Below, in pieces: positions 5,969-26,196 of a stretch of DNA of 26,645 nt. Below the pieces are notes generated by a model. It saw nothing but the letters and a program-made list of their open reading frames with translations, ran no database searches and had not been told where the DNA came from. A program made the position numbers and the translations under genes. The stretch covers positions 1 to 26,645 of the IMG/VR virus record IMGVR_UViG_3300031857_001163; one strand, given 5' to 3'. Position 1 is the stretch's first letter. Every line of letters starts with the position of its first letter. The DNA is from a virus.

Positions 5969-6542
5969 ATCAATCGGTTTAAACGATAAGAAAACACAAA
6001 TTATTCTTGGGGACACAAGAAGAGATTACAAAAATTATATCAATTCATTAAAGTATAGGTATAACAAGAAAAATCCTTATTTACCAAACTACGTCATTAC
6101 CAAAAATGGTAAAATTTTTCAAGTAATTCCACCAAATGCTTATTCCAATTACATGGAAAAAGAATCTATTGACAAAAAGTCTATAATTATTGTTTTGGAA
6201 AATATGGGTTGGCTCAAAAAAAATCCATTGGACAATACGTATACAAATTGGTTAGGTGATATTTATAAAAAGGAAGTTTTCGAAAAAAGATGGAGAGATG
6301 AAATTTTTTGGGAACCTTATAATAAAAAACAAATAAAAACACTATCTGAACTTATTTTAACATTGTGTGAAAAGTTCAGTTTACCAAAGAATATGGTAGA
6401 AACAAATGTGATTTGTGATGGTGTTGAAAACATAAAAGGAATTACAAGTAAAAGTAATTTTGATATAACATATAAAGATGTTAACCCATCTTTTGATTTT
6501 AAACTTTTAAAAAAATTAATACAAAATGATGAATCAATATGA
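5931..6542 (+). CDS. Amidase_2-like (peptidoglycan amidase fold) protein lacking obvious zinc ligands
   Basis: 203 residues, or 201 from the second Met at 5937; the frame overlaps the upstream gene by 38 bases. The pattern is that of N-acetylmuramoyl-L-alanine amidase type 2 domains: NYVITKNGKIFQVIPP (53-68, where active enzymes usually have a zinc-binding His near the start), SIIIVLENMGW (84-94), WEPYNKKQIKTL (127-138) and a C-terminal DVNPSFDF (183-190). The expected His ligands are not visible: ILGDTRR, N53 and the segment before DVNP carry none. It is therefore either a catalytically dead peptidoglycan-binding protein, an inhibitor, or a strongly diverged enzyme. Neighbouring small membrane proteins would fit a lysis cassette. 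Confidence 0.6.
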   Translation: MVMENLYELTDFKSIGLNDKKTQIILGDTRRDYKNYINSLKYRYNKKNPYLPNYVITKNGKIFQVIPPNAYSNYMEKESIDKKSIIIVLENMGWLKKNPLDNTYTNWLGDIYKKEVFEKRWRDEIFWEPYNKKQIKTLSELILTLCEKFSLPKNMVETNVICDGVENIKGITSKSNFDITYKDVNPSFDFKLLKKLIQNDESI

Positions 6543-7071
6543 CGAAATAAAATCTTTACTTAAAAGGTCTAGAATGTTAATGGAGCAAACAGGTCCAATT
6601 AACATGGCTAAAAGTATTGAAGATGAAATCGAATCAGACACACAAGACACAAAAGAAGTCGATCCAGAAGAAGTAAAAAAAGAAAAAAGTAAAACGTATA
6701 GAATATCAGGTGGGTTACTAAGTCTTTATAGTAAAGACAAAAAAGATTTGGAACTTACATCAGAAGAAAAAAGTGCGTTTCAGGAAACTATGGATGATTT
6801 TGTTGAAGATGTATCCAATCTAACGGAATTTGGAAAACTTAATGTTTATGAAAATTCAGTTGAATGGAGTGGTAAAATAATGGACGCTGACATCGAATTT
6901 TTCTATACTATTGGTGAAGAAACAGGTGTTTATATCAATGGAGATATGATAAAACTTGATGATAAATTAGTAGAATTAATAAACAAACTAACCACTTTTT
7001 ATGAAAAGTTCAAAACAAAGTGGGCTAAAGTTATAGGATTAAGAAAGAAAACAAAAGAACAAGAAAAATGA
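6526..7071 (+). CDS. Hypothetical phage protein with candidate capsid-targeting N-terminus
   Basis: 181 residues, overlapping the upstream gene by 17 bases. The N-terminus is a basic amphipathic helix (EIKSLLKRSRMLMEQ) containing L18-M-E20, a match to the (I/L)xE cleavage signal of T4-type prohead proteases. An acidic linker (about 31-55) leads to a folded domain (about 56-165) beginning YRISGGLLSLYSKDKKD and containing NVYENSVEWSGKI. I associate this domain with uncharacterised large-phage proteins. Location in a probable late operon and the N-terminal signal suggest a virion component; function unknown. Confidence 0.75.
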   Translation: MMNQYDEIKSLLKRSRMLMEQTGPINMAKSIEDEIESDTQDTKEVDPEEVKKEKSKTYRISGGLLSLYSKDKKDLELTSEEKSAFQETMDDFVEDVSNLTEFGKLNVYENSVEWSGKIMDADIEFFYTIGEETGVYINGDMIKLDDKLVELINKLTTFYEKFKTKWAKVIGLRKKTKEQEK

Positions 7072-7421
7072 AAAAATTTTTAACAGAAAACTTCAGATAC
7101 GTAATTTACGGGTTGATAGCCATTTTGGGTTTTTATCTTATTTCAGTGTGGATGAATCCAAAAGTTGATATGAGTGAACTTGACAAATACAAATTAGATC
7201 AGTTGAATCAAAACATAAAAGATATTACAGATAATCAAAAGAAACTTGACAGTACTATTCAAAATTATAACAACGAATTAACAAAAATTGATTCAACCAT
7301 ATCACAAGTTAGAAATCAAAAAACAATAATTAAGGAATATTACAAAGGAAAAGGTGAAGAAATTGATACAATGACATCTTCACAGTTAGATAGTCTGTTC
7401 CATAAAAGATATAGTTATTAA
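7068..7421 (+). CDS. Small membrane-anchored coiled-coil protein (spanin-like topology)
   Basis: 117 residues, overlapping the previous gene by four bases (ATGA). One membrane segment near the N-terminus (YVIYGLIAILGFYLISVW, about 11-28) is followed by an extended, heptad-rich coiled coil (about 38-95) and a short basic/aromatic end. The topology is that of an inner-membrane spanin (Rz-like), and it sits two genes after an amidase-fold protein and just before a gene with a signal peptide. I see no sequence motif that proves a spanin role, and other phage membrane proteins share this plan. Confidence 0.7.
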   Translation: MKKFLTENFRYVIYGLIAILGFYLISVWMNPKVDMSELDKYKLDQLNQNIKDITDNQKKLDSTIQNYNNELTKIDSTISQVRNQKTIIKEYYKGKGEEIDTMTSSQLDSLFHKRYSY

Positions 7422-7422
7422 T

Positions 7423-7830
7423 ATGAAAAAATTAATTTACATTCTAATAATGATTTTACCTTTTCCACTTTTGAGTCAGGTAAAAAAAGACACATCTATG
7501 GTTTGTTTACCATATAGTGTGGCAAAACAAGTTGCTTTGGATTTGAATAAGTTGGATTCCATTATTGAAATCAACAATTTGACAAATGAAGAATTAAAGC
7601 AGACAGAAAGAAAAGTAATATATAAGGATAGTATTATTACGGTAATGAAAGAAAAAGAAGTCAATTATGAAACAATTATCACAAAAGAAAGAGAAAAGTT
7701 CAAAATTGTTGACGATCAAAACACTAACTTAAGAGATGAGTTAACAAAGGTAAGAAGAAGAAGAACCTTTTTGGAAATATTTGGAGGAGCGGTAATTGGT
7801 ACATTAGGAGGAATATTAATATTAAAATAA
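7423..7830 (+). CDS. Exported coiled-coil protein with C-terminal hydrophobic anchor
   Basis: 135 residues. A signal peptide (MKKLIYILIMILPFPLLSQ, likely cut near residue 19-20) is followed by VCLPYSVAKQVALDLNKLD, a coiled coil with repeated KDSIIT- and EKEVNYETII-type segments, a basic patch (RRRR near 112) and a glycine-rich hydrophobic end (about 119-134). There is no lipobox cysteine at the signal-peptide junction, so it is not an obvious outer-membrane spanin. It starts one base after the preceding stop, and the next gene starts right after its own stop. Probably acts in the host envelope, perhaps in lysis with its neighbour. Confidence 0.72.
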   Translation: MKKLIYILIMILPFPLLSQVKKDTSMVCLPYSVAKQVALDLNKLDSIIEINNLTNEELKQTERKVIYKDSIITVMKEKEVNYETIITKEREKFKIVDDQNTNLRDELTKVRRRRTFLEIFGGAVIGTLGGILILK

Positions 7831-8079
7831 ATGGCACTTTCAAGTTCAGACAAAAAAGAAATAGAGTCGATTATTAGAAAAGAAATCAAAAGTTTCCTTA
7901 ATGCTCCTACTGTAAAAAAATTTGAAGATAGTATTATAGAAAAAATTAAAAAAGATATGGAAAAAGGTAATTTAAGAGGAGACATTAACGAGTATATCAG
8001 AAAGGCGTTTGTTGAATTTTATTATTTCCTTTGGAGTAAACGTTCCACTTGGGAAAATTCAATTAAAAATATAAAATGA
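7831..8079 (+). CDS. Hypothetical phage protein, 82 aa
   Basis: Small helical, highly charged protein beginning MALSSSDKKEIESIIRKEI, with an aromatic C-terminal section (FVEFYYFLWSKRSTWEN). No gap separates it from the preceding stop, and it overlaps the next gene by four bases, so it is firmly part of the operon. I associate this type of small protein with large myovirus genomes but know no function. The tight helical sequence suggests a virion or assembly component. Confidence 0.75.
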   Translation: MALSSSDKKEIESIIRKEIKSFLNAPTVKKFEDSIIEKIKKDMEKGNLRGDINEYIRKAFVEFYYFLWSKRSTWENSIKNIK

Positions 8080-8549
8080 TGTACACCAAAAAGTTTATAC
8101 AAAATTTAATTTCAGAAGCATTCAAAGAAACAATTGAAGCAACATCAACAGGTTCTTCAGGTTCATTTGAACCATTATTTGGTGATGTTGAAGAAGAAAA
8201 TAATGAAGAAGAGTTCACCGAAGCCACATCATCAAGTAGTTCAGGTTCTTATGAAACTGCATCGTTTTTAGCAAAAGATTTAAAGAATTGGGGACCTTCA
8301 AAAAGAACACAAATACCTGGTGGACAGTTTGTTTCAGTAAAAGAAAAATGTAAAACTTTCCCTTATTGTAACCAAGGAATAGGTGCCCTTGAATTTTCTA
8401 ATAGTAAAACTAAAGCAATAAAAAATTTAACGAAAAGAAAACCCAAAAAAAAGAGACCTTTAGATGAAGCAATTCACAATGTTTCTTTGAAAACGGGATT
8501 ATCTGAACAGGAAATAAAAAACATAATATTATCGGTGATAAACCGGTAA
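8076..8549 (+). CDS. Candidate virion protein with internal Ser/Gly repeats and capsid-targeting N-terminus
   Basis: 157 residues. The N-terminal helix YTKKFIQNLISE contains I12-S-E14, a T4-type prohead-protease site. A twelve-residue motif, EATSTGSSGSFE (21-32), recurs as EATSSSSSGSYE (49-60) with an acidic linker between. Then comes KNWGPSKRTQIPGGQF and a Cys pair in CKTFPYC (92-98), a basic stretch (KRKPKKKRP) and a C-terminal helix ending in INR. It overlaps the preceding gene by four bases and ends the operon. The composition resembles internal head or scaffold-type proteins; function unknown. Confidence 0.72.
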   Translation: MMYTKKFIQNLISEAFKETIEATSTGSSGSFEPLFGDVEEENNEEEFTEATSSSSSGSYETASFLAKDLKNWGPSKRTQIPGGQFVSVKEKCKTFPYCNQGIGALEFSNSKTKAIKNLTKRKPKKKRPLDEAIHNVSLKTGLSEQEIKNIILSVINR

Positions 8550-8564
8550 TTTATAAAATTGTTG

Positions 8565-8573
8565 ATATTTATA
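8565..8573 (+). promoter_or_regulatory. ATATTTATA box, 4 bases before the start codon
   Basis: Exact copy of the recurrent box, separated by only four bases (GGTT) from ATG 8578. The same four-base spacing occurs before genes 19305 and 23950. If it is a T4-late-like promoter, the transcript would have almost no leader. Confidence 0.45.
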
Positions 8574-8577
8574 GGTT

Positions 8578-9675
8578 ATGGACAGAGAAATATTAAATAT
8601 AGTAAATAAAGTTTTGTCAGAAGAATTGTCTGGTAAAATTTCTAATGTAAAAAGAAAAATTTACGAAGGTAAAAAAATGTGTGAACAATGTGGTTCAGCA
8701 ATGAATGAAGGTGCGTGTAATGAATGTGGTTATATGGAAGGTGAAATGCAAGAAAAATTACATGGCAAACAAAAGAAAATTGATTTAAACAAAAATAATA
8801 AAATAGATGCTGAAGATTTCAAACTATTGAGAAGAAAAAAGAAAAGACACACTAATGAAGGTGACGTTGAAGAAGGAAACGCATTTACAGGTGCACTAGA
8901 AAGGGCAAGAGAAGAAAATAAAAAAACATTTACAGTTGGGGGTAAAAAATTTCCAGTAAAAGAATCGGTATATAGAATAGACATTGACGGGGAAAAATAC
9001 TTTTTCAATGAAAACGAAATGGTTGATGTTATTGAAAATATTGTTTTAGAAGAAAAGAAGAAGAAGAAGAAAACAACAACAAAAAAGAAAACGGTAGATC
9101 CAATCAAATTAACAAAAGATAATATTTCTAAGTCTGGTAAAGAAAATGAAGATTACATTGATAGTGTCATCAAAAAAATGAAAGATTATCTTAAAGATGG
9201 TTCTAAAGGAAAATATGAAATGAATCCAAAAGATTTCCCAAGAGGTAATGGTGAAATTGAAAAGATGGAAAAAATGGCTTACATACCATCAAATGCGGTA
9301 CAAGATTACGTTGATAATTTTACAGCGGCTAGTTTGGAAAATTTAGATTACGATGGTATTTCACCAAACGAAGATTGGGTAGATGATTTAATGGTAGGTG
9401 CATCAAGAACAGGAAATAATCCTGAATGGGCAAATGCTGTTGAAACCCCAGCAAACAAAAAACGTAATAAAATCAGACAAGATAACTTACTTGCAAAGAT
9501 TAAAAGAAAGGCGTACAACAAGTCAGCACAACCAGTGGTTGGTGACAAGAGTGGTAGTGAAACAGATGCTGGATCTAAAATTTTGATGAAATTAGAATCT
9601 AAAGAAGAAACAAAAGTAATTAGCGACATCGAAAAAATGAAAAATTTGATGGAGTATCACAAAAAAACACAATAA
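8578..9675 (+). CDS. Candidate virion protein: capsid-targeting N-terminus, zinc ribbon, EF-hand-like loop
   Basis: 365 residues. The N-terminal amphipathic helix ends in L13-S-E15, a prohead-protease-type site. A four-cysteine zinc ribbon follows (C35, C38, C47, C50), then a calcium-binding-type loop DLNKNNKIDAED (69-80) with the acidic/Asn spacing of an EF-hand or dockerin. GNAFTGALERAREE and GGKKFPV (100-127) resemble a segment I associate with large phages. A Lys-rich tract near 158-170 precedes a long helical, basic C-terminal region that ends EKMKNLMEYHKK, containing another LxE. The architecture suits a scaffold or packaged internal head protein. No enzymatic motif seen. Confidence 0.75.
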   Translation: MDREILNIVNKVLSEELSGKISNVKRKIYEGKKMCEQCGSAMNEGACNECGYMEGEMQEKLHGKQKKIDLNKNNKIDAEDFKLLRRKKKRHTNEGDVEEGNAFTGALERAREENKKTFTVGGKKFPVKESVYRIDIDGEKYFFNENEMVDVIENIVLEEKKKKKKTTTKKKTVDPIKLTKDNISKSGKENEDYIDSVIKKMKDYLKDGSKGKYEMNPKDFPRGNGEIEKMEKMAYIPSNAVQDYVDNFTAASLENLDYDGISPNEDWVDDLMVGASRTGNNPEWANAVETPANKKRNKIRQDNLLAKIKRKAYNKSAQPVVGDKSGSETDAGSKILMKLESKEETKVISDIEKMKNLMEYHKKTQ

Positions 9676-9692
9676 AATAGTTTAGATTTATT

Positions 9693-9746
9693 ACGACCCG
9701 TATTATTATTTAGTATGACATTAGATAGTAATATGGGTCGTTTTTT
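9693..9746 (+). terminator. Terminator-like hairpin spanning the start codon of the next gene
   Basis: Arms 9693-9708 and 9726-9741 form 16 consecutive pairs with two G-U wobbles. The 17-base loop contains ATG 9715, and six T residues follow (9741-9746). It lies 18 bases after the stop of gene 8578, so it probably terminates that transcript, but it also buries the region around both possible starts (9715 and 9733) of the downstream gene. Confidence 0.65.
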
Positions 9747-10206
9747 CGATTGGTTAGTCAAACCAATGAATGATGACGATGTTATAGCTTGGAATTTAGC
9801 AAATAACATTACACCCGAATTAACCGAACTTTTCAGAGATTTTTGTTTTTCGTTTATCACGTTACTTAAAGACACATACTTAGGTGATGACTTTGATACT
9901 AACACACAAACAAAAGTTGGAATGACTTTGGAACAAAAAAAAGGACATTTTTTGTGGTGTTGGAATAAAAACATAGAAAACTTCAAAAAAGAAAGTATCA
10001 ACTTTAATTTTACAAATGGTGATGTGGAATTTTTTGAAGGGTTTTTCTTTGAAGTTTTTTATAATCAAACCGATAACAAAATAAAAGAAACGATGGATGA
10101 ATTTTTCAGACAAATATTTGAACGTCATGGTAAAAAGACAAAATCAGACATTGAAATATTCACAGACATTTATAAACTTTTGGAAAGATCTTTGAAAACA
10201 GTATAA
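9715..10206 (+). CDS. Hypothetical phage protein, 163 aa
   Basis: Soluble, aromatic-rich protein with conserved-looking blocks MGRFFDWLVKPMNDDD, HFLWCWNKNIENFKKE and FFEGFFFEVFYNQ. I associate this pattern with uncharacterised proteins of large Bacteroidetes phages; function unknown. Two starts are possible: ATG 9715, in the loop of a strong hairpin, and ATG 9733 (MGRFF), inside its 3' arm. M7 is the better match to the conserved block. Translation is probably controlled by, or requires unfolding of, this hairpin. Confidence 0.7.
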   Translation: MTLDSNMGRFFDWLVKPMNDDDVIAWNLANNITPELTELFRDFCFSFITLLKDTYLGDDFDTNTQTKVGMTLEQKKGHFLWCWNKNIENFKKESINFNFTNGDVEFFEGFFFEVFYNQTDNKIKETMDEFFRQIFERHGKKTKSDIEIFTDIYKLLERSLKTV

Positions 10207-10273
10207 AAGTTTATTTACTATTAAACTTTAATAATTTATGTTTAAAACAAAATAAAAAATAATATTAATAAAA

Positions 10274-10640: not shown

Positions 10641-10644
10641 AAAC

Positions 10645-11418: not shown

Positions 11419-12043
11419 TCTTAAGTCTGTATAGTCTTTTTTTGTCAAATCCTTTTTCTTCTAAAACGCTATATATCCATTTTCTTTGTGTTATAGAAAT
11501 ATCACGTACAAACAACCCATCCATTCTATTATTTTCCATAAAATGACTTTGAAGTATATCTAAAAACCTTTCAGATTCATCAGAATCTTTTAATGAAAAA
11601 AGGGATACTGATGTTTCTATCTGTACACACAGTTTGTTATTAAGGGTGTAGACACTTTTAAATTCTTTATCATTCAGATACTTTTTTAAAAATTCATCGA
11701 ACGAAATCTTTTTTTGTTCTTGCCAATCGAACAGAAGTTCTTCTACTTTATATTTTTTTATATCCAAAAAGACAAATTCGGGATTATCTAAGTTCACTGG
11801 TAAGTTCCTACCTAAGTCATCTGTTAAAAATAAAGAAGTCTGTATTTTAGTTTTATTTGTTAAAATTGCTAATTCGTAGTCTACAGGGGTTGCATTTTCA
11901 ATTTTCTTATCAAAACAAATTTTATCATTTTCTTTAATTAATTGATTGAATTTTTCCCTGGCACTTTTTTCTGTTGCATAACGTTTGATAATTTTTCTTT
12001 TTTTCTTATTCTTAAATAAAACTATTAAATAATTGTTTGCCAT
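11399..12043 (-). CDS. Conserved phage hypothetical protein, 214 aa (minus strand)
   Basis: Begins [20 protein letters not shown], then shows a short alpha/beta pattern with [39 protein letters not shown] and a C-terminal block [28 protein letters not shown] associate these blocks with uncharacterised genes of large Bacteroidetes phages. Its start codon shares the palindrome CATG (12041-12044) with the divergent dnaJ start, so the two genes have no intergenic space, and each one's promoter or leader must lie inside the other. Function unknown. Confidence 0.78.
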
Positions 12044-13022
12044 GAAAAATTATTATGAAATATTAGGTGTTAATGAAAGTGCTTCGCAAGACGATATAAA
12101 AAAAGCCTATAGAAAATTAAGTAAAAAATATCATCCAGATGTAAACCCCAACGGGGAAGAAAAGTTCAAAGATATTACTGAAGCTTATGAAGTATTGGGT
12201 GATGAAAATAATAGAAGAAAGTATGACAACCGTGGATCTGGTGGTTTTGACATCAACAGTATGTTTGAACAAATGATGGGTGGAGGTATGAGACAAAAAC
12301 CAAAGGCACCAGATAAAGTTATGGAAATAGTCATTTCGCCACTTGATTCTTATTTCGGGGTTAAAAAAGACATCGATGTAACGTCACTTGATTGTTGTGG
12401 TGGGTGTAATGGTAATGGTGGACAAAGAAACACTTGTAATCACTGTAAAGGTTCGGGTTACATCACACAAAGATTTGGTATGGGACATTTTATGCAACAA
12501 ATCCAAACAGGATGTCCTATGTGTAAAGGACAGGGGTCAGTAATATCCGTTGCCTGTAACACTTGTGGAGGTAGAGGTGTGACACCAAAAAAAGAAAAAT
12601 TGAATGTAACAATACCTTCTAATGTCGATAATGGTGATTTTATGCGAGTAAAAGGAAGGGGTGATTATAATTTGAATGTAAGGGATAAAGGTGATATCAT
12701 ATTAAAGGTGATTATGGCAAATGATAACGACTTTGAAAAAATTGGAAGAGATTTGGTTTTCAAAATGAAGGTGACGCCTATTGATATTCTTATGGATACA
12801 CCAATAGAAATTCCACATCCTGATGGAAAATTAAAAATACATTTACCTGATGTGTTTGATAGTGAAAAACCGTTGAGGGTTTCTAATAAAGGATACAAGT
12901 ATTCTGATAGAAATGGTGACTTATATATAAAAGTTACTGTCACTAATAATAAAATTAGCAACAGTAAAATTGTGGAAGGATTAAAAGGATTGTTAGAACA
13001 AACTGAAAATGTTCCTGATTAA
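12042..13022 (+). CDS. dnaJ: DnaJ/Hsp40 co-chaperone
   Basis: 326 residues from ATG 12042; an upstream TTG at 12033 is less likely because MKNYYEILG is the canonical DnaJ start. A J-domain (1-65) with HPD at 31-33 is followed by a short Gly/Met-rich linker. The zinc-finger domain has four CxxCxGxG repeats (C119/C122, C132/C135, C158/C161, C172/C175), and a complete C-terminal substrate-binding domain follows. It stimulates DnaK ATPase and delivers clients; no dnaK or grpE is present here, so it probably recruits host DnaK for phage assembly or replication. It is shorter than typical bacterial DnaJ (about 370-380), mainly in the linker. Divergent from the 214-residue gene. Confidence 0.95.
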
Positions 13023-13243: not shown

Positions 13244-13256
13244 GATAAAAAAACAA

Positions 13257-14146: not shown

Positions 14147-15517
14147 ATGGCATTAAGATTTACAACCCTTTTGAGGGATTTGATTATCGAAAATTCAAGA
14201 TTCGATGTTTTATATGACAAATTTGTAAAACCAAAAAAAGATAGAAAACCGTCAATGACGTTTCAAATTCTTTTTGATATTATATCAGCGGATCCAACAT
14301 CAAGAATACCTGAAGGTATGACTTCAGATAATGCAAATCCGCAGGACATGGAAAAGGTAAAAATTGGAAAATATACCCAATGGTTACTTAAAAACTATGC
14401 AACACCAAATATGCAAGTAATCGGAATTGAAGATCCCAATGATCCTGCAGTTAAAAGTGCGATTAAACGATATCAAGATATGTTTATGGAAGACTTGTAC
14501 AAAGTTACAGGTGACTTAATGAAATATGAAAAGTTTAAAAATAGATTACCCCAAGAATATAGGGACATTAATAAATTAACACCATCTGAACTTTATGATC
14601 AAGTAAAAGACTTTAGTTTAGAAAAAACAAAGGCGACTGCTGAAGAGAAAAAAGAAGCGTCTACCACTTATAAACATCCAGGTGCTGAAATTGTGTACCG
14701 AGGTGGTAATTGGACTGTTGCAAAAATTTCAGATACCGGACAGTTAGGTAAAGATGCTGCTTGTTTTTATGGTGGTTATTATTTGGAACCATCAAGAGGG
14801 GAAACTAGATGGTGTACGTCTTCACCGGGACTAACATGGTTTGATAGATATATTAAAGACGGACCACTTTACGTTGTTATTCCAAATTCGCCACAAAAAT
14901 ATACAGGTTCTATGGATACTGGTGAAAAATCAGGGTTACCCGCTTACAGATACCAATTCCATTTTCCATCAAACCAATATATGGATCCTGCAGATAGACA
15001 AATTAATCTTATTGAATTTTTGAACAGTCAAGAAGAAGGATTGAAACAATTCTTTAAACCTGAATTCATGAAAGGTTTAACAACTGCGGATGGTAAGAAA
15101 ATAGCAGTAAACTATCCTGATGACTCCGCATCCAAGTTCATTGCACTTTATGGATTCGAAGAATTTTTCGATAGTTTACCATCAGACATTATTAGATTAG
15201 AATTTACTAAAAAAGGAAAAGATAGTTTTGAATTACCAATACCTGAAAGTTTAGGAAGATTTCAGCAACTTACATCACTTCATTTAGTTGGGTGCGTTTC
15301 CAAAATACCTGAAAGCATTTGTAACCTTAAAAAGTTACAGTTCCTTTCATTACCTGACAACCCAAATATGGAAATGTTACCATCTTGTTTGGCGGATTTA
15401 CCTAATTTGAATTTGGTGAATTTGAGTAGATCGAATCCAGAAAAAACATTACCTGATTCGTTGAAACAAAGACAAGAAACGGATGAAGATTTTCACGTAT
15501 TTCCTCCTACGGCTTAA
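14147..15517 (+). CDS. Leucine-rich-repeat protein with candidate capsid-targeting N-terminus
   Basis: 456 residues. The N-terminal helix RFTTLLRDLIIEN carries I13-I-E15, a prohead-protease-type site. A central domain (about 180-310) contains RWCTSS (W222-C223-T224), GPLYVVIPN, YRYQFHFPSNQYMD and DRQINL. I associate this WCT plus YQFHF-type domain with several large-phage proteins. The C-terminus (about 365-445) holds leucine-rich repeats: FQQLTSLHLVGC, KIPESICNLKKLQFLSLPDN and LPNLNLVNLSRSN. LRRs bind proteins, and together with the targeting peptide this suggests a packaged and injected effector or a virion protein. The preceding box hints at late expression. No catalytic residues identified. 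Confidence 0.8.
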   Translation: MALRFTTLLRDLIIENSRFDVLYDKFVKPKKDRKPSMTFQILFDIISADPTSRIPEGMTSDNANPQDMEKVKIGKYTQWLLKNYATPNMQVIGIEDPNDPAVKSAIKRYQDMFMEDLYKVTGDLMKYEKFKNRLPQEYRDINKLTPSELYDQVKDFSLEKTKATAEEKKEASTTYKHPGAEIVYRGGNWTVAKISDTGQLGKDAACFYGGYYLEPSRGETRWCTSSPGLTWFDRYIKDGPLYVVIPNSPQKYTGSMDTGEKSGLPAYRYQFHFPSNQYMDPADRQINLIEFLNSQEEGLKQFFKPEFMKGLTTADGKKIAVNYPDDSASKFIALYGFEEFFDSLPSDIIRLEFTKKGKDSFELPIPESLGRFQQLTSLHLVGCVSKIPESICNLKKLQFLSLPDNPNMEMLPSCLADLPNLNLVNLSRSNPEKTLPDSLKQRQETDEDFHVFPPTA

Positions 15518-15864: not shown

Positions 15865-17505
15865 ATGGAAACAATATACAGACAGGAAAAAGTTTTATAC
15901 TACACCGAGTTATTCAAAAATTACAATAAATTCCCTATTGAAACTAAACCAAAACCAGATAATGATTTTGACATTGAATACTATATAAATTTCAAAAAAG
16001 GTTTTACTTATGAAAAGGGCAATGATACAGAAGAATGTTTTGTAAAAAACTACTCAAACCCATTTGCTTCTATTAGTATGTTAAGAAAAACATTTGTAGT
16101 AGAAAAAAATGAAGACAAAATTTCTATGAAATTGTTTTCATACAAAAGATCGAGAGGATTAGAAAAAAAGTATTTCACAGTAAGAAGGGAAGTTAATTTT
16201 CTAACATTTTCATTTAAGACAAAAATGTTTTATAGTGGCTTCACAAATTTTAAGAAAAAAATAAAGTTAGGTGGAAGATTTAGAGTCAATAGGACTAATT
16301 TGGTTAGTTTGGAAGTTTTTAATAATTTGACAAAAACATTTATAGATGATGATGTAAAAAAAGATGTGTTTAACAATTTCCTTGATGAAATAATTAAAAG
16401 ATTGAATTTGAAATTACAAGTTGATACTGACAATATTCCATCGAAATACTACCAAATTATTTTATTGAACAATAAAATTAAATTTCCTGATTCTTACTTC
16501 AAATTTGCAGGTTTTTATTTGACAAAAAAAATCTTAAAAAACTTTGATTTCAATTTAGTAACATGGTTTATGAAAACAAATGAAATGAAAGGTACTAAAA
16601 TCAGAAGATTACTTAATCGATATGATTTTTTAGATTTGAGCAATATTAAATTTTATTATGATTTATTAGGTGTGGATTTGTTCAATAAAATCAAAGATGA
16701 TGTTTTTTTGACTTCGACTTTAAGTGATGTGTACAATGGATCGAATTTTAGTACTCCTATTATAATATCAAAAAAAGAAAAAGAAAATATTGTTAGTATT
16801 TTGAATACAACAACCACTAGTGAATTTACATTTTCGTTATTGGATCATTTTCAGTTCAAAAAAGATTTAGAAAAATATGGTGAATTTGTGAAAATAAATG
16901 CAAAAACACATGATGAATTTGTGGTTGAACATTCTGAATGGTCGTCATTGTTACAATCATACAGAACGGGTGTGGTAGATAGGTTTTATGGTGATGATGC
17001 ATATTTGGTAGAAAAACCAATCAAATACAATGATGAAACTTTTTATCCTGTATTACTAAAGAATACTGAACAATATGAAAATGAATCCATGGTTCAGAAA
17101 AATTGTGTTAGAACTTACAGTGAAAAACCACATTGTTTTATAGTTTCACTAAGAAAGGGTGATAAAAATTCAAACATACGGGCAACGATAGAGTTTCAAT
17201 TTAGAAAAAAAGAACTTTTAAGAATACAGACATTAGGTAGATTCAATAAATTATTGTCAGAAGAATGGAATAGTCCGGTTGAAGAATTAACAAATTTTGC
17301 AAATTATTTGTATCAAAAAGAATTTATCAAATTACCACGAATGACTAAAAAATACATGAATGGAAAAGTGAACGTATTACAATCTTCATTTTTTGAAGTA
17401 GAAACAGAAAAGGGGGTAGTTCATAGAATGACACCAAGTTGGAGTGGACAAAACACTTTACAAGAAATAATAGTGGATTATCATTTTTTTGACGAACTGT
17501 ATTAA
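15865..17505 (+). CDS. PcfJ-like domain protein, 546 aa
   Basis: Large basic protein. The N-terminal two-thirds is rich in Lys, Phe and Asn with no motif I recognise. The C-terminal part (about 395-500) matches the PcfJ-like pattern: an acidic lead into MVQKNCVRTY (N413, C414, V415), then CFIVSLRKG, RATIEFQF and LLRIQTLGRFN, which parallels the HCVgxY, sxR, TxE and QxxGxxN landmarks of that family as I recall them. PcfJ proteins occur on plasmids and phages, but their biochemical role is not established. It is downstream of the 15524 promoter, so probably not a late gene. Confidence 0.65.
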   Translation: METIYRQEKVLYYTELFKNYNKFPIETKPKPDNDFDIEYYINFKKGFTYEKGNDTEECFVKNYSNPFASISMLRKTFVVEKNEDKISMKLFSYKRSRGLEKKYFTVRREVNFLTFSFKTKMFYSGFTNFKKKIKLGGRFRVNRTNLVSLEVFNNLTKTFIDDDVKKDVFNNFLDEIIKRLNLKLQVDTDNIPSKYYQIILLNNKIKFPDSYFKFAGFYLTKKILKNFDFNLVTWFMKTNEMKGTKIRRLLNRYDFLDLSNIKFYYDLLGVDLFNKIKDDVFLTSTLSDVYNGSNFSTPIIISKKEKENIVSILNTTTTSEFTFSLLDHFQFKKDLEKYGEFVKINAKTHDEFVVEHSEWSSLLQSYRTGVVDRFYGDDAYLVEKPIKYNDETFYPVLLKNTEQYENESMVQKNCVRTYSEKPHCFIVSLRKGDKNSNIRATIEFQFRKKELLRIQTLGRFNKLLSEEWNSPVEELTNFANYLYQKEFIKLPRMTKKYMNGKVNVLQSSFFEVETEKGVVHRMTPSWSGQNTLQEIIVDYHFFDELY

Positions 17506-19257: not shown

Positions 19258-19291
19258 TTAATAATATAAAATAGTCATTTGTCAATAACTT

Positions 19292-19300: not shown

Positions 19301-19304
19301 TAAT

Positions 19305-20477
19305 ATGTCAATTAAAAACATCATAAAAAAAGTTTTATTAGAAGAAACTGAACAAAATCAGTGGGTTGAAGTCGATCCTCAAGATTATTTAGAATTACTA
19401 AAATACGTGGACGGAAACGGTGCTATGATTAGTAAATTACCACAATATAAAAACAAAAAAATTGCAATCAACGGGGATTTGAAAATAAATTCAAATGATG
19501 TAAAAAACATTGATAGTATTGACTATGTTCAGGGTAATTTGGATATTAGTTATTCTGGTATTGAACATTTTGATAAAAGTAAAGTAAAAGGTAGTTTTTA
19601 TAACTATAATTCAAAAATGTTTCATGAAGAAGAAAAAAAGAAATTACAAAAAAAATACGACTATTTAGAAAGTTTAAGACAAGAAGATAGTTGGGATGTT
19701 AAAAATGAAGAAGATGTTTCAGAAAGAACAGAAGCGTTATACCAACATTTAAAATCAGAAGGTCACCTTGGTGAAGATGAAGATAAATATTTTATTTATC
19801 CTCTAAATTATGGAAGGACTAAAATGTATGAATGGTTGGGTGAAAACATCTTTCAAAGTGAATGGGAAGTTTATAGAGACGATGAGTTAGACGATGCTGC
19901 TTATGATTATGTTACGAATCTAATTGATGATGTTGGTTTAGATGCGTTCAGGGATTGGATTTATGAACAGAATTTAGATAAAGATGCTGTAAGACAATTT
20001 TATCGTGAATATTATGAAGATGTAGTTTATGATAATCCTGAAGAATATGGTGTTAAAAAACAATTATCATCAGAACAGATTAAATTCAAAGAAGTTTTTC
20101 AAAAAAAATTGAATAATTTGTATAATAAATTACAACAGGCAACAACTGAAGAAGAAAAAGAATCCTTAGAAGACAATATAAATAATACAAAAGAATTAAT
20201 TCAAGATATTGATGATAATCCTGAAGGAGGTTATGATGAAGACGATATTGATGATGCGTTAACTAATTTGGCTGAAGATAGGTTGGATAATTTTTTTGAA
20301 GATATCAAAAACTTTGGTTTCGAAAAAGACTTCATTTTAGATTATATAGATTTAAAAGGAGTAACAGAAGACGTTGTAAGACATGACGGATATGGTGCAC
20401 TATTAAATGGTTATGATGGTTCTGATGAAGAATATGAAATTAATGGAACCACTTATCATGTGATGAGACAAAATTAA
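19305..20477 (+). CDS. Acidic candidate virion protein with capsid-targeting N-terminus
   Basis: 390 residues. The first helix SIKNIIKKVLLEE holds L11-L-E13, a prohead-protease-type site. A short repetitive beta section (NGDLKINSNDVKNID, then GNLDISYSGIEHFD, about 55-88) resembles the GDL(D/K)I repeats of phage LRR-like proteins. The remainder is very acidic and helical, with clusters such as DDELDDAAYD and YDEDDIDD. Acidic mass and the targeting peptide suit a packaged internal protein or DNA-mimic-like protein; no catalytic motif is visible. It is preceded by a candidate late box and followed by gene 20526 after 48 bases. Confidence 0.72.
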   Translation: MSIKNIIKKVLLEETEQNQWVEVDPQDYLELLKYVDGNGAMISKLPQYKNKKIAINGDLKINSNDVKNIDSIDYVQGNLDISYSGIEHFDKSKVKGSFYNYNSKMFHEEEKKKLQKKYDYLESLRQEDSWDVKNEEDVSERTEALYQHLKSEGHLGEDEDKYFIYPLNYGRTKMYEWLGENIFQSEWEVYRDDELDDAAYDYVTNLIDDVGLDAFRDWIYEQNLDKDAVRQFYREYYEDVVYDNPEEYGVKKQLSSEQIKFKEVFQKKLNNLYNKLQQATTEEEKESLEDNINNTKELIQDIDDNPEGGYDEDDIDDALTNLAEDRLDNFFEDIKNFGFEKDFILDYIDLKGVTEDVVRHDGYGALLNGYDGSDEEYEINGTTYHVMRQN

Positions 20478-20490
20478 TTACTTTACTGTG

Positions 20491-20499
20491 TTATTTATA
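20491..20499 (+). promoter_or_regulatory. TTATTTATA box upstream of gene 20526
   Basis: One-base variant of the recurrent box, 26 bases before ATG 20526. Confidence 0.3.
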
Positions 20500-20525
20500 T
20501 TTCTTAATTTTTATCATCATTTAAA

Positions 20526-21275: not shown

Positions 21276-21292
21276 TTTCTTATTTTTCCCAT

Positions 21293-21484
21293 ATGGGTTT
21301 TAATAAAAGATTTTTGAATAAAAAAAGTATAATCAATAATGTTCATGATATTTTAAGTTACCTTAATGTAGATGCTTTTTACATTAACGATGACTTTTCC
21401 TATGATGTTTATCGATTGTACATTGAAGGTAAATCAGAAGAAGAAATACTAAAATACATTAATGAAAATAAAGATGAAGATTAA
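21293..21484 (+). CDS. Small hypothetical protein, 63 aa
   Basis: Basic N-terminus (MGFNKRFLNKKSI), then a helical core and an acidic end (EGKSEEEILKYINENKDED) of the type seen in small helix-turn-helix-like proteins. Its stop overlaps the glutamine synthetase start by 11 bases (or 23 from the earlier Met), so the two are probably co-translated. No family recognised. Confidence 0.6.
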   Translation: MGFNKRFLNKKSIINNVHDILSYLNVDAFYINDDFSYDVYRLYIEGKSEEEILKYINENKDED

Positions 21485-22691
21485 ACTTGAATACGTGTGG
21501 CTTGACGGGTACACACCAGAACCAAACCTTAGAAGTAAAGTTAAAATAGTTAATCATGGCGATGTTAAAGACGCTATGATTACAGGTAAATTTCCTATGT
21601 GGAATTTTGACGGGTCGTCCACCAATCAGGCGCAAACAGATAGTTCAGACTGTTTATTAAAACCAGTTCGACATTATATGATTGATACTTTGTCGACGGT
21701 ATATGTTTTTTGTGAAGTTTTAAATGCAGATGGTACGCCACATCAATCAAATACACGTTCCAAATTAATTGGTGAAGAAAAAAATATTTGGTTTGGTTTT
21801 GAACAAGAATATTTTATTTTCGATAGAAAGAACAAATGTATTTTGGGGCATGACGAAAATAACTTGGAACCGCAAGGTAAATATTACTGTGGTGTTGGTG
21901 AATATGTTGCTGGTAGAAGTTTTGTAAATGAACACCTACATATGTGTTTGAATTATGGAATCGACATCACAGGAATAAATGCAGAAGTTGCACTTGGACA
22001 ATGGGAATATCAAGTGTTTTCAAAAGGAAAATTAAAGGCGGGTGATGACTTATGGATGACTAGATATTTCTTACATAAAATTGCAGAAAAATACGATTAC
22101 AAAATTGAGTTACATCCAAAACCTTTACAAAAAGGTGAATGGAATGGTTCAGGACTTCACACCAATTTTTCGACAGAAAAAATGAGGGAAAAAGGTGGTG
22201 AAGAATATTTCAAATCATTATTTTCAAGTTTAGAAACACGACATTGGAAACATATAGAAGATTATGGTTCTTCGAATGATTTAAGACTTACTGGAAAATT
22301 TGAAACACAATCAATAAACAAATTCAGTTGGGGTATTTCAGATAGGGGTGCATCAATTAGGGTTCCACAAACAACAGCAAATGAATGGAAGGGATATTTG
22401 GAAGACAGACGACCTGCATCAAACGCCGACCCATATAAAATCATATATCAATTATGTGAATCAATCAAAAATGCTGAAGCAATTAATGATATAAAACACA
22501 AAATGAATTTCAAAGGAAACTTTGATGAAATTATCAATAGATACAACGGTGTGCTTCAAACCGAAGAGTTATTGGAAGAATATCAAAATGATGATAATTT
22601 TGAAGTGGAAAAAGAAACTATGGTAGAAAATAGAAATAATATATCAACAACAGAAATAGAATTTAATTTAAATGGAAATGACACTAAATGA
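21474..22691 (+). CDS. Type II (GSII) glutamine synthetase with C-terminal extension
   Basis: 405 residues from ATG 21474 (KIKLEYVWLDG, the canonical GSII start); an upstream Met at 21462 adds four residues. It catalyses ATP-dependent amidation of glutamate. GSII landmarks are all present: NFDGSS, GFEQEYF (metal-binding Glu pair), INAEVALGQWEYQV, NGSGLHTNFS (catalytic His), FSWGISDRGASIRVP (substrate Arg) and YLEDRRPASNADPY. Host Bacteroidetes mostly use GSIII and GSI as I know them, so a phage GSII is notable. A Glu/Asn-rich extension of about 70 residues follows the usual end. Position between phage genes with overlapping reading frames argues against recent insertion as a separate unit. 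It would raise glutamine for nucleotide synthesis during infection. Confidence 0.93.
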   Translation: MKIKLEYVWLDGYTPEPNLRSKVKIVNHGDVKDAMITGKFPMWNFDGSSTNQAQTDSSDCLLKPVRHYMIDTLSTVYVFCEVLNADGTPHQSNTRSKLIGEEKNIWFGFEQEYFIFDRKNKCILGHDENNLEPQGKYYCGVGEYVAGRSFVNEHLHMCLNYGIDITGINAEVALGQWEYQVFSKGKLKAGDDLWMTRYFLHKIAEKYDYKIELHPKPLQKGEWNGSGLHTNFSTEKMREKGGEEYFKSLFSSLETRHWKHIEDYGSSNDLRLTGKFETQSINKFSWGISDRGASIRVPQTTANEWKGYLEDRRPASNADPYKIIYQLCESIKNAEAINDIKHKMNFKGNFDEIINRYNGVLQTEELLEEYQNDDNFEVEKETMVENRNNISTTEIEFNLNGNDTK

Positions 22692-22857
22692 GTTAAGACA
22701 AGAAAAGGAGTATGGTTATAAAAATCCATCAATTAGAAGTAACCAATCAGTAGATGATAAACACATCATTAATTTGGTAAAAAAATATCCTAATGATGCC
22801 GATCTAGGTAGGGAAGTAAGAAAATATTTAATCAACTTAGGGTTATATGGAAAATGA
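22672..22857 (+). CDS. Small hypothetical protein, 61 aa
   Basis: Overlaps the glutamine synthetase end by 20 bases and the DUF3310 gene start by 11 bases. Sequence is MEMTLNELRQEKEYGYKN at the N-terminus and a helical, basic C-terminal section (LGREVRKYLINLGLYG). The start could also be M3. No family recognised; the double overlap suggests a genuine, translationally coupled gene. Confidence 0.6.
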   Translation: MEMTLNELRQEKEYGYKNPSIRSNQSVDDKHIINLVKKYPNDADLGREVRKYLINLGLYGK

Positions 22858-23071
22858 ACAAGTAAACCACCCAAATCATTATGGTGGTGAAACAAACATT
22901 TACGAAGCAATCAAAGTAATTGATGCTTGGGACTTAGGGTTTTCACTTGGTAACACGGTTAAATATATTTCAAGAGCAGGCAAAAAGAATAAAGATAAAG
23001 AATTGGAAGATTTAAAAAAGGCACTTTGGTATTTAAATCACCACATTGAAACATTAGAAAAAAATGATTGA
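22847..23071 (+). CDS. DUF3310 (SaV-like) protein, 74 aa
   Basis: Matches the small phage DUF3310 domain: VNHPNHYGG at the N-terminus, YEAIKVIDAWDLGFSLGNTV, KYISRAGKK and a C-terminal EDLKKALWYLNHHIE. The domain is part of T7 gp1.7, a nucleotide kinase, and occurs as stand-alone proteins in many phages, where its activity is not settled. It overlaps the third methyltransferase by eight bases. Confidence 0.88.
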   Translation: MENEQVNHPNHYGGETNIYEAIKVIDAWDLGFSLGNTVKYISRAGKKNKDKELEDLKKALWYLNHHIETLEKND

Positions 23072-23912
23072 AACAGGAAAAATTATAAATGGTGATTGTA
23101 TTGAAGTAATGAAAACATTACCTGAATGTTCTGTCGATTTGATTGTTACATCACCACCCTATGGTGTTGGAATTGATTACGACGTTCATGAAGATGATGT
23201 ACCATTTGATGAATATTTGGTGTTTGCCAAAAATTGGTTAACTGAAGCGTATAATCTATTAAAAGATGACGGTAGAATTGCTTTGAACATTCCATACGAA
23301 ATCAATAGACAGAAGAAAGGGGGAAGAATTTTCTTTGTTTCAGAAATGTGGCAAATAATGAAAGAAATTGGGTTTGGGTTCTTTGGTATCGTGGATTTAG
23401 AGGAACAATCACCTCATCGAAGTAAGACAACTGCTTGGGGATCTTGGATGAGTCCTAGTTCACCATATATTTATAATCCAAAGGAATGTGTCATTTTGGC
23501 ATACAAAAAACACCACATTAAAAAGGTGAAAGGCGAACCGCAGTGGAAAGGGACACCAACTGAAATTCAACAGGAGGATGGAACCATAAAAACTAAAGTT
23601 GTGTATGAAGAAACAGATAAGAAGGAGTTTATGGAGCTTGTTTTTGGTCAGTGGAATTACTTTGCAGATACTAAATCACTCACCAAGGCAACGTTTTCGA
23701 TGGACATCCCAACGAAAGCAATCAAAATACTATCCTACAAAAACGATGTGATTTTAGATCCATTTGCCGGTAGTGGTACAACATTAGTGGCGGCTGAAGT
23801 GTTAGGTAGACGATGGTTAGGTATTGAATTATCACCAAATTATAGTGAAATTGCAAAAACAAGGGTTGAATATTTCAAAACATTACAAACAATACAAGAA
23901 CTCCCACTTTAA
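23064..23912 (+). CDS. Beta-class DNA methyltransferase (second of this class)
   Basis: 282 residues with motif IV TSPPYGVGIDY (about 29-39), a middle target-recognition region (about 95-190) and motif I DPFAGSGTT (about 230-238) followed by WLGIEL. It belongs to the N6_N4_Mtase family and is distinct from the 1680 enzyme (TSPPYGVG against TSPPYDNL). No nuclease gene accompanies it, so it is an orphan, probably for self-protection or gene control; the site and base are unknown. It is coupled to DUF3310. Its TAA stop lies inside an intrinsic terminator stem. Confidence 0.9.
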   Translation: MIETGKIINGDCIEVMKTLPECSVDLIVTSPPYGVGIDYDVHEDDVPFDEYLVFAKNWLTEAYNLLKDDGRIALNIPYEINRQKKGGRIFFVSEMWQIMKEIGFGFFGIVDLEEQSPHRSKTTAWGSWMSPSSPYIYNPKECVILAYKKHHIKKVKGEPQWKGTPTEIQQEDGTIKTKVVYEETDKKEFMELVFGQWNYFADTKSLTKATFSMDIPTKAIKILSYKNDVILDPFAGSGTTLVAAEVLGRRWLGIELSPNYSEIAKTRVEYFKTLQTIQELPL

Positions 23913-23927
23913 AAGTGGGTTTTTTTA
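23903..23927 (+). terminator. Intrinsic terminator overlapping the methyltransferase stop
   Basis: CCCACTT (23903-23909) pairs with AAGTGGG (23913-23919), and a T-rich run follows directly (23920-23926). The stop codon lies in the stem-loop, so the last ribosome could affect termination. Confidence 0.8.
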
Positions 23928-23936
23928 TTTTTGTAA

Positions 23937-23945
23937 CTATTTATA
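23937..23945 (+). promoter_or_regulatory. CTATTTATA box, 4 bases before the start codon
   Basis: One-base variant of the box, four bases (AGTT) before ATG 23950 and right after a terminator, so a promoter is needed here. Confidence 0.45.
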
Positions 23946-23949
23946 AGTT

Positions 23950-26196
23950 ATGAAAATTATAATCACAGAATCGCAATACAGACAAATAATTAAAGAATCA
24001 GGTATCAGGGATATTAAAAAAATCGCAGAAAGATACCCTAAAGCAAAAATTTACTTCCATCAAGACTTAGATGGTGTAACTACCGCAATTGCAATGAAAA
24101 ACTATCTTGAACAAAACGGCATCAAAGTAGTTGATGCTGAAGTGATTCAATATGGTGATAAAGAGTTTTCAGTTAAAAAACTTGACGCAGAAGGTGATGT
24201 GATGCCAGTGTTAGTTGACTTTGCACACGGCAAACCAATGTTTGTCATTCATACCGATCACCACGATACACAAGCTGGTGTTGAATCAGGAACTGCAACA
24301 AGTTTCAAGGCATCTAGATCGAATGTTGAAACAATATCCCAAACGATATCACCAAAAGATATTTTTCCATCTGATGACTTACTTCTTATATCTACTGTCG
24401 ATTCTGCCAATTTCCTTGCACATGATATAACTTTTGACATGGTAATGAATTATATTTTCAAAATGGATAAGGATCAATCACTTCAAAGAAATAAAATGAT
24501 GATGGGATTGGTGACAAACAAATTGTTACTTGCATTTAAAAACAAACCAAAATTTTTAGAAACATTGGTTATGAAAAGTAACCCATCTTTGTTAAGTATT
24601 TTAAATAATATTAGAGATATAATGAAGGTGGAAGGTTATGCTGAACCTGAAGAACTAGAACAAAACAAACAGAATTATATTGAAAAAATGAAAGAATTCC
24701 CTAAAGTACAGGGTAAAGTTATTGTACAGTATGGTGGGGGTTCTATGACAAAACCAGGTTCATATGATAGATATACGCCGTTTAAGAATAATCCTGATGC
24801 TGACTTCTTGGTAATTGCTTGGCCGACAGGAATTGTTCAAGCTTCTTGTAATGCATATAAAGGTGAACGTTCACTTAAAGGTGTTAATCTTGGTGAAATG
24901 AAAGATGAGGTTCTTAAAAAGTTTGAACCGGAATTAAGTAAATTAAAAATAAGTTTTGGTACATTAAAAAGAGTTTCTGAATCAAAGGCTGGTGAGGGTT
25001 CCGTTGGTTTTACTCTCAAAGATTTTTTAGCGATATATGGAAATGCACCATCATTGAAGATTGAAGGAAATAAAGAAGATACATTAAGTGAAATAAATAA
25101 ACTTTCAGATAAGTTATATTCCACTTTAACTTTCGAAGAAAAAATGAATTTGGAAAAAGCCAGTGTTAATGGTATGGATGTCGTGAAAGCAAATTCAGGT
25201 GGACATAAATGTATTACAAACATTTCTGGTTTAAGTTATCTTTACACAAACATTAGAAGGTATAAAGATGACGAATTAAAGATGATACAAAAATATGGTG
25301 GATCAAACAATTTTGTTTTGGACATCCAAAGAAAGTTGAAGTCGATGAAAAAAAATCAAGAACTTACTGAAAAGCAAAAAACTGCAGCAGTAAACCAAAT
25401 CAAAAAAGAAATAGAATCAGGAAGGTATAACCCAGACATAGACAATAAGGTAACATCATATGTAGATATGATTAAGAAAATTCAACAAGAGTTTGTAAAA
25501 GTACTTGAAAGTTATATAGAAAAAGAATCCATCAACGAAAATGTCGTTGAAAAAAAAAAGTACTATATAGACGATAGTGACATTAAAGGTGCGGGAAAAG
25601 GGGTATTTGCAAAAACAAATATCAAAAAAGGTGAACGTATCGGATTGCTTCACACAATAAAAAAAATGGGTGTCAATTATGATTTTACTGAATTGGGTAA
25701 AATGCATAATCATAGTGGTAAACCCACTTGTCATAATGAAAAAGTTGGAAATAAAAGATACTTAGTCGCATCCAAAGATTTAAAAAAAGGTGAAGAACTG
25801 ACAACCAATTACAGATTACAACCAGATTTGGAACAACCAAAAGAAGGTTGGGGTAATTTGAAAGAAGAAAAAGAATTTAAACCACACATAGATGGTTACC
25901 GTACATATTCACCATTCAAAGATTTGCCATACATAATAGTCAAAGGGAATGGTATTGACTGTGATAATATTGTTCATGACTTGGTTTTAGTAGGTGACAA
26001 TAAAAAGGTTAAATACTGTAAAAAAAACACTGGAGTTTATAAAATTACAGGAGCAAGTAAAATTGTAGAATTACCTGTTGATAAAACTGAAGATGTTGAA
26101 GAAATATTTAAAAGTCCTGAAAATGTGGAACTGTGGGTTAAAGAAAAAATTAAATCAGTGGATAAAAAAGGGGAAATTAGAAGAATGATGAATTAA
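23950..26196 (+). CDS. DHH-family phosphoesterase fused to a SET domain, with candidate capsid-targeting N-terminus
   Basis: 748 residues. The N-terminus (MKIIITESQYRQIIKES) carries two (I/L)xE sites (I5-T-E7 and I14-K-E16). A DHH phosphoesterase part follows: HQDLDG (37-42), D90, TDHHD with D103-H104-H105, and DSANF with D151. A DHHA1-type GGHKC lies at 417-421. DHH/DHHA1 proteins hydrolyse cyclic dinucleotides, nanoRNA or single-stranded DNA ends. A coiled linker (about 455-530) leads to a SET domain (about 537-625) with GKGVFA, NHSGKP (587-592) and GEELTTNY (614-621), the SAM and lysine-channel motifs of protein-lysine methyltransferases. A C-terminal domain (about 645-735) is unassigned. 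I know of no such fusion. A packaged, injected effector is plausible. Confidence 0.82.
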   Translation: MKIIITESQYRQIIKESGIRDIKKIAERYPKAKIYFHQDLDGVTTAIAMKNYLEQNGIKVVDAEVIQYGDKEFSVKKLDAEGDVMPVLVDFAHGKPMFVIHTDHHDTQAGVESGTATSFKASRSNVETISQTISPKDIFPSDDLLLISTVDSANFLAHDITFDMVMNYIFKMDKDQSLQRNKMMMGLVTNKLLLAFKNKPKFLETLVMKSNPSLLSILNNIRDIMKVEGYAEPEELEQNKQNYIEKMKEFPKVQGKVIVQYGGGSMTKPGSYDRYTPFKNNPDADFLVIAWPTGIVQASCNAYKGERSLKGVNLGEMKDEVLKKFEPELSKLKISFGTLKRVSESKAGEGSVGFTLKDFLAIYGNAPSLKIEGNKEDTLSEINKLSDKLYSTLTFEEKMNLEKASVNGMDVVKANSGGHKCITNISGLSYLYTNIRRYKDDELKMIQKYGGSNNFVLDIQRKLKSMKKNQELTEKQKTAAVNQIKKEIESGRYNPDIDNKVTSYVDMIKKIQQEFVKVLESYIEKESINENVVEKKKYYIDDSDIKGAGKGVFAKTNIKKGERIGLLHTIKKMGVNYDFTELGKMHNHSGKPTCHNEKVGNKRYLVASKDLKKGEELTTNYRLQPDLEQPKEGWGNLKEEKEFKPHIDGYRTYSPFKDLPYIIVKGNGIDCDNIVHDLVLVGDNKKVKYCKKNTGVYKITGASKIVELPVDKTEDVEEIFKSPENVELWVKEKIKSVDKKGEIRRMMN

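Follow-up and report, generated by a model that had tools for sequence, protein, structure and literature searches.

Why should six proteins of unrelated sequence, encoded along a single viral DNA, begin in the same way? In the IMG/VR virus record IMGVR_UViG_3300031857_001163, whose whole 26,645-base length is referred to here as the window, the open reading frames (ORFs) starting at 6526 (LME20), 8076 (ISE14), 8578 (LSE15), 14147 (IIE15), 19305 (LLE13), and 23950 (ITE7 and IKE16) each open with a short N-terminal leader that carries the motif (I/L)xE, all of them where the original prediction had placed them. That prediction took the leaders for capsid-targeting sequences like those of bacteriophage T4, which a gp21-like prohead protease would remove. 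In T4, according to passages of PMC9026906, N-terminal propeptides 7 to 65 residues long (10-19 in the internal proteins) are removed by gp21, whose cuts fall after L/I-x-E; in the internal protein IPIII, residues 4 and 7 matter most for targeting and residues 8 and 10 for processing. IPIII starts MKTYQEFIAE/A (the slash marks the cut), and these four residues are P7, P4, P3, and P1 when counted from the cut. The window and its relatives are best read as encoding a capsid-targeting and prohead-protease system in the manner of T4 but much enlarged; a probability of about 0.8 is assigned to this reading, stated for leader plus packaging. The original prediction is thus supported in part: a protease gene, the motif in the phage's own gp23, leaders across the genome, and conservation speak for leaders that would be cleaved, most weakly for the protein at 8076, whose site is poorly kept.

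The window matches positions 192500-219144 of a 229,188-base IMG/VR contig (G001) with zero mismatches, and the analysis took in three relatives, G002 (281 kb), G003 (166 kb), and G004 (105 kb). G001 is a T4-like phage, with terminase, portal, head protease, and major head protein genes (Table 1). The gp21-like protease that the original prediction presupposed lies outside the window, as a Peptidase_S77 gene of G001 (E 9.5e-25); the family is also present in G002-G004, and all four proteases keep the blocks ELNHP and SSRG of T4 gp21. An alignment of gp23 at the T4 cleavage site reads FLTE/A in T4, LINE/A in G001-G003, LINE/T in G004, IVSE/A in Flavobacterium phage immuto, and LISE/A in Microcystis phage Mel-JY01, the last two being among the nearest annotated isolates by gp23; the T4 gp24 site is LLRE/S. 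The leaders end in the same (I/L)xE motif as the phage's own gp23 at this site, where cutting of gp23 is likewise a prediction.

A genome-wide scan for the N-terminal pattern carries the set far above the original six, and the leaders found fall into at least three types with a common (I/L)xE junction. Type A reads RLTESDLxRIVxRVIxE, type B often ends in ISEQ or LNEQ, and type C is short, NIIKKVLxE. When a type-A hidden Markov model (HMM) built from eight leaders was run against the 874 proteins of G001-G004, all 27 matches above 8 bits were N-terminal, and none occurred in reversed and shuffled proteins. All leader HMMs together, at 8 bits or more at the N-terminus, find 58 proteins, 28 of which are seeds (19/228 in G001, 25/323 in G002, 5/168 in G003, and 9/155 in G004), with two matches in reversed proteins and 0 and 0 in the other controls. 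In the window, the leader at 19305 scores 20.3 bits with the type-C HMM without being among its seeds, and distant homologues of its protein bear a type-A leader. The genes at 6526, 8076, 8578, 14147, and 23950 have no leader-HMM match of 8 bits or more; the type-A scores of 8578 and 23950 are 5.8 and 3.2 bits. One type-A gene of G001 stands in the head gene cluster, between the protease and the gene preceding gp23, which spans 62033-63580 and is a putative scaffold gene by its position. Its equation with the T4 gp67/68 position was rejected, since in T4 gp67/68 precede gp21 and the G001 gene follows the protease. Twelve of the 19 HMM-positive G001 leader genes lie near the contig ends (1-25135 and 220442-229188), which would adjoin if the genome is circular. 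Other G001 genes (e.g., 13, 65-68) have what look, by eye, like typical signal peptides and unlike the leaders.

The type-A leader was also sought with the pattern RLTESDLxRIV, which contains no start codon and nothing past the valine. It occurs in at least 150 ORFs in 120 viral stretches, and all 150 matches listed lie 2-10 residues past the nearest ATG. Pattern ORFs numbered at least 174, of which 169 have the motif at most 12 residues from an ATG and 155 are distinct (136 viral, among the matches listed, and 19 from genomes). The motif [ILVMF]xE follows in 151 of these 155, at +17 in 123 and, after a four-residue insertion, at +21 in 28. In the short form (n = 123) the information drops from 4.3 bits at the glutamate to 1.4 at the first residue after it and 0.8 at the second, with P2 variable; as these rows were grouped by having the glutamate, the unbiased figure is the 151/155. 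A conserved leader followed by a sharp drop in conservation is how a cut site would be expected to appear. The parts that follow the leader, here called bodies, are diverse, since the 146 of at least 40 residues among the matches listed fall into 110 BLAST clusters, 91 of them singletons, with remoter kinship possible. A looser type-A pattern is present in 13/15 virus records, in 1-11 copies, and absent from a reversed-pattern control.

Conservation among orthologues carries the case for the window leaders themselves. The N-terminal site is kept at the rates given in Table 1 and, for 23950, in 30/31 orthologues, whereas the [IL]xE sites farther inside these proteins (n = 21) have a mean conservation of 42%, and only 2/21 reach 90% or more; rows dropped from these counts were unaligned near the N-terminus (except for 8578), short matches, or identical in the first 40 residues. 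It is because of this conservation that the motifs rise above chance. In the alignment of the 14147 family (n = 11), I13 and E15 are invariant, and in the 6526 family LxE/Q is present in 10/10 distinct N-termini by eye, in L086 only at residue 39. P7 and P4 are hydrophobic and P3 is I or L in five of the six leaders; 6526, with Arg at P7, fails. Of the six, 23950, 19305, and 14147 are supported best and 8076 least, with good support also for 8578 and 6526.

The clearest junction is that of the DHH-SET protein encoded at 23950. In orthologues chosen by the body motif [STGAN]G[ILV]R[DNG][IM], the junction [ILVM]xE/[STG]G[IL]R is found in 27/28 distinct N-termini (the exception is L064), behind leaders that are unrelated in sequence, 7-25 residues long, and range from MKRLIKE to MKNLIKSVLREESRRLISE. 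The first invariant column in an alignment of 21 sequences, selected from 46 kept matches, is the glutamate of the junction, E16 of 23950. ITE7 was rejected as a cut site, as it is kept in only 9/31 orthologues, and IKE16 is therefore the likely site. Two huge phages, of 634 and 642 kb, have homologues that start MISKYNQFINE/EVGLRN and MLRKYGQFINE/EVGFKN. Second ORFs beside these huge-phage genes (L348 and L349) start MKYLKYFE and MRYLKYFE, perhaps another leader type.

Leaders also appear to be exchangeable. Within the ORFs of the loci fetched, homologous bodies bear different leader types in 59 pairs from six body groups. For instance, the bodies of L033 (MKIQLTESDLVILIKKIISE, type A, IISE) and L068 (MNIESIIKKILIE, type C, ILIE) are 94% identical over 102 residues.

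On the T4 model, the leader, a short helix with hydrophobic P7, P4, and P3, would bind the prohead core during head assembly, and the S77 protease of gp21 type, which would also trim gp23 at LINE/A, would cut it off after (I/L)xE. The freed bodies would remain in the head beside the DNA, and at least some of them would enter the host on infection, like the T4 internal proteins and Alt. Core binding, cleavage, packaging, and ejection are all transferred from T4 as passages of PMC9026906 and PMC3012670 describe it. From their sequences, the leaders are very probably cut by S77; packaging of the leader-bearing bodies in the head, by analogy, is probable; and injection of most bodies into the host is favored with less assurance.

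Leaders of the form RLTESDLHRIV... also occur in bacteria, as one or two orphan copies per genome (L273, L274, L276-L283, L287, L288, L290, L292-L296; e.g., L287 1104-1367, minus strand). The genomes are mostly metagenome-assembled genomes of the Prevotella group, with two isolates, and in the isolate of Segatella baroniae the neighbors of the leader gene appear, by eye, to be chromosomal ORFs. These copies may be captured phage genes. The host of G001 is presumably a member of the Bacteroidota, judging by the annotated relatives and the Prevotella-group copies.

Co-occurrence of leaders with the protease was examined on contigs as well. The first 13 records have S77 and gp23 in four (G001-G004) and neither in nine. 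Among 25 leader-A contigs of 30-349 kb, hand-picked from the 120 viral stretches, S77 is present in 19, all of which also have gp23, and gp23 is in no others. The remaining six, which have neither S77 nor gp23 nor gp20, were set aside as a refutation; they look like fragments because gp23 and gp20 are absent too and because one of them (G018) shares its four pattern matches, in identical order, with G021 and G024, which have S77. In two contigs S77 was matched as two pieces in one long ORF, as if with an insert (G020:C1:222089-222991, 386 codons; G023:C1:265878-267536, 609 codons).

Several observations weigh against a protease-cut capsid address. In the records scanned, S77 and gp23 always occur together, so their co-occurrence with leaders is a sign of descent from T4-like phages more than of a particular link with the leader. 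Only two of the 17 leader-bearing bacterial genomes (19 leader copies) have S77 above the cut-off, and a leader can therefore be present where the protease is not, if only in orphan form; these are 17 of 24 genome stretches, L274 being the same genome as L273, and L275, L284, L285, L286, L289, and L291 having been omitted because they probably match by chance. S77 remains below the cut-off in the two huge phages (22.7 and 20.1 bits), and the looser type-A pattern has no match in immuto, Mel-JY01, or T4. Among the swap pairs, identity is greatest (up to 97%) in those with L036; the type-A leader of L036 ends without (I/L)xE, and the motif appears only at residue 28, in the body; the body family of these pairs also has IYE or LYE at the body start. 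The 8578 orthologue L076 has VLGG in place of the motif, and the 8076 site is kept in only two of six orthologues under strict alignment; by eye, the 8076 family has [IL]xE within the first 16 residues, at shifting positions, in 8/9 distinct N-termini.

Motif counts add to these points. As the original prediction had conceded, an (I/L)xE near the N-terminus is not rare by chance: [IL]xE ending at residues 8-30 occurs in 15/38 called window genes against 42/136 internal windows (p = 0.21; a 7-residue match of gene 7068 is below the counted range), and the window alone therefore cannot carry the claim. The stricter motif taken from the genetics of the T4 capsid-targeting sequence (CTS), with hydrophobic P7 and P4, [IL] at P3, and E at P1, is found in 5/38 N-termini against 3/136 internal windows (p = 0.013), yet its control ending in K is enriched in the window as well (7/38 against 7/136, p = 0.015). 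N-terminal [IL]xE is enriched across the genomes of G001 (85/228 against 243/941, p = 5e-4), G002 (137/323 against 320/1227, p = 2e-8), and G004 (74/155 against 123/476, p = 5e-7), and not significantly in G003 (53/168 against 173/684, p = 0.06). Enrichment is also seen for [IL]xK, the control (p = 1e-4 in G001, 5e-4 in G002, and 0.004 in G003), so that raw counts are not specific for glutamate and the case is not built on them.

The alternative that survives best accepts that the leaders are cut by S77 and holds that the bodies are prohead-core or assembly factors inside the head, not delivered to the host. The T4 core proteins, e.g., gp22 and gp67, are gp21 substrates as well, as stated in passages of PMC9026906, and a leader-A gene lies inside the head gene cluster of G001. 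Bodies as many and diverse as those of the type-A set, and domains without an obvious head role such as PAP2, WYL, PG_binding_1, and SET, fit this alternative poorly, and it is considered unlikely. A second alternative, quite improbable, makes the leader a docking or localization signal for a target other than the prohead (the tail, a replication site, or a host partner), with the glutamate being part of the binding site or cut by another Glu-specific protease. The bacterial copies without S77 above the cut-off would agree with it, as would the extra first block LTES(D) of type A, which is fixed by the search pattern and seen also in G001 N-termini. It would leave unexplained why the junction agrees with the site in gp23 of the phage itself, why conservation ends at P1, why leaders unrelated in sequence have the same junction, and why P3, P4, and P7 fit the CTS positions found in T4 by mutation.

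Chance, under which the six motifs are coincidences, draws on the commonness of (I/L)xE and the enriched K-ending controls; with orthologue conservation set against 42% at internal sites, the HMM controls, the 151 of 155 distinct leader-A ORFs, and the DHH junction, it can hardly account for the set, and for five of the six proteins comparison already contradicts it. An element that acts on DNA or translation where genes begin, suggested by the position of the leaders and by the exchange of leaders as whole blocks between homologous bodies, is very improbable as well, as in 117 type-A leaders the residues are fixed while synonymous codon entropies reach 1.0-2.0 bits at the Leu, Ser, Thr, and two of three Arg positions (0.2 at the first Arg), and the extra length of the long form is exactly four codons.

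Table 1. Predicted leaders and related features of the window, with head genes of the parent contig G001 (positions are those of the window unless G001 is named).
Feature	Position	Strand	Remarks
Leader of DHH-SET gene 23950-26196	23950..23997	+	16 codons, MKIIITESQYRQIIKE; predicted cut after E16; mature start SGIRDI
DHH-SET protein body	23998..26196	+	DHH-like N part; SET match at residues 584-621
Type-C leader of gene 19305-20477	19305..19343	+	13 codons, MSIKNIIKKVLLE; site kept 18/18
Leader of LRR gene 14147-15517	14147..14191	+	15 codons, MALRFTTLLRDLIIE; site kept 9/9
Leader of gene 8578-9675	8578..8622	+	15 codons, MDREILNIVNKVLSE; site kept 7/8
Leader of gene 8076-8549	8076..8117	+	14 codons, MMYTKKFIQNLISE; site kept 2/6, weakest of six
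Leader of gene 6526-7071	6526..6585	+	20 codons, MMNQYDEIKSLLKRSRMLME; predicted cut LME/Q; site kept 8/9
Terminase large subunit	G001 55192-56967		
Portal, gp20-type	G001 57008-58807		
Head maturation protease (Peptidase_S77)	G001 60557-61264		
Major head protein (gp23)	G001 63614-65425		

The six window leaders are 13-20 residues long, and their hydrophobic moments are 0.49-0.80, compared to a median of 0.48 in the remaining window genes. The original prediction had also called them basic, which is true of four; their net charges up to the glutamate are, in order of position, +1, +1, -1, 0, +2, and +1. Two AlphaFold models, both mediocre (predicted template modeling scores of 0.51 and 0.57), place the leader in a low-confidence segment, which is consistent with a removable leader and weak as evidence; in the model of 14147, residues 1-16 have a per-residue confidence (pLDDT) below 50.

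The putative cargo is mostly without recognizable domains. The window bodies comprise one DHH-like and SET protein, one leucine-rich repeat (LRR) protein, and four without a Pfam match above the cut-off. The DHH-SET body matches Pfam SET (7.9e-09, above the cut-off) and DHH (3.1e-4, below it), with weak Foldseek matches to RecJ, pGpG phosphodiesterase, and DhhP; searching PDB sequences with the DHH alignment found nothing at E 0.001, and PADLOC gave no match at E 0.01 for the six proteins. Among 20 further G001 proteins, selected mostly because an HMM or inspection by eye pointed to a leader, 14 have no Pfam match at E 0.01; the others match PAP2, WYL, PG_binding_1, and DUF6576 above the cut-off and CarboxypepD_reg and MLD below it.

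Six other genes of the window have no visible leader. The one at 21462-22691 is glutamine synthetase-like (Gln-synt_C 4.9e-21, Gln-synt_N 6.1e-10) and kept in relatives. Those at 3222-4037, 12033-13022, 1680-2576, 23064-23912, and 15865-17505 include a sigma-70-like factor, DnaJ-like and DNA methylase-like proteins (by eye), and a PcfJ-like match just below the cut-off.

Taken together, it seems reasonably likely that a large group of T4-like jumbo phages, probably infecting Bacteroidota, loads some hundred or more protein families into the capsid by means of a few exchangeable, cleavable N-terminal addresses. Sequence alone would then suffice to work out what is injected, and infecting phages could also load orphan host genes that have the address. 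The cargo of phage heads is usually known only through proteomics of cultured phages; if the leaders are an address, that of many uncultured jumbo phages could be listed from sequence, and their small uncharacterized proteins would become candidates for early take-over or counter-defense effectors. The T4 capsid-targeting principle would also be seen to operate on a larger scale than it does in the T-even phages.

Comparable systems have been described in part. In the open-licence PubMed Central (PMC) literature as searched, the leaders are not described, and the string LTESDL is in no paper. The bS21-encoding Bacteroidetes phages of lakes, which are jumbo phages of fresh water that encode terminase, capsid, and prohead protease, are possible relatives, although the parts of PMC9723584 seen mention no leader. 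Mel-JY01 has a ribosomal protein S21 gene annotated between its protease and capsid genes (L146 22183-22410), which recalls these lake phages as passages of PMC9723584 present them. In the giant phages SPN3US (gp245) and phiKZ, head proteins are also cut after glutamate by a gp21-related protease and proteins are ejected (PMC9026906, PMC5694885, PMC7411985, PMC10052503); unlike here, exchangeable leaders are not mentioned in the passages available from these sources, a comparison by description and not by sequence. Nearer by gp23, immuto_2-6A, a phage of Flavobacterium sp. LMO8 with annotated prohead protease and gp23, has N-termini ending in ILKE (YP_010114607.1), LINE (YP_010114415.1), LLKE (YP_010114606.1), and IITE (YP_010114600.1 and YP_010114453.1), and Mel-JY01 has three MIKLKSLLKE-like paralogues, a score without shuffled control; the underlying scan of N-terminal pairs covered immuto minus 100000-109999 and the last 510 bases, and 49 kb of T4. 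A tblastn search of annotated phages with 22- and 27-residue leaders found no matches, queries this short being a weak test.

The closest parallel is T4 itself, in which only a handful of proteins bear a leader. The short N-terminal propeptide, the L/I-x-E junction, the hydrophobic P7, P4, and P3, the placement of the leader on diverse bodies, and the presence of S77 together with gp23 are all like the CTS and gp21 of T4. The start of T4 IPIII also resembles those of both huge-phage DHH homologues in the string Y-x-x-F-I-x-E, while types A-C resemble the T4 leader only in spacing, by eye. The kind of system is thus known from T4, while its scale and its several leader types were not found in print: unlike T4, the phages analyzed here have at least three leader types, 19 HMM-positive genes out of 228 in G001, and bodies that extend up to long multidomain proteins.

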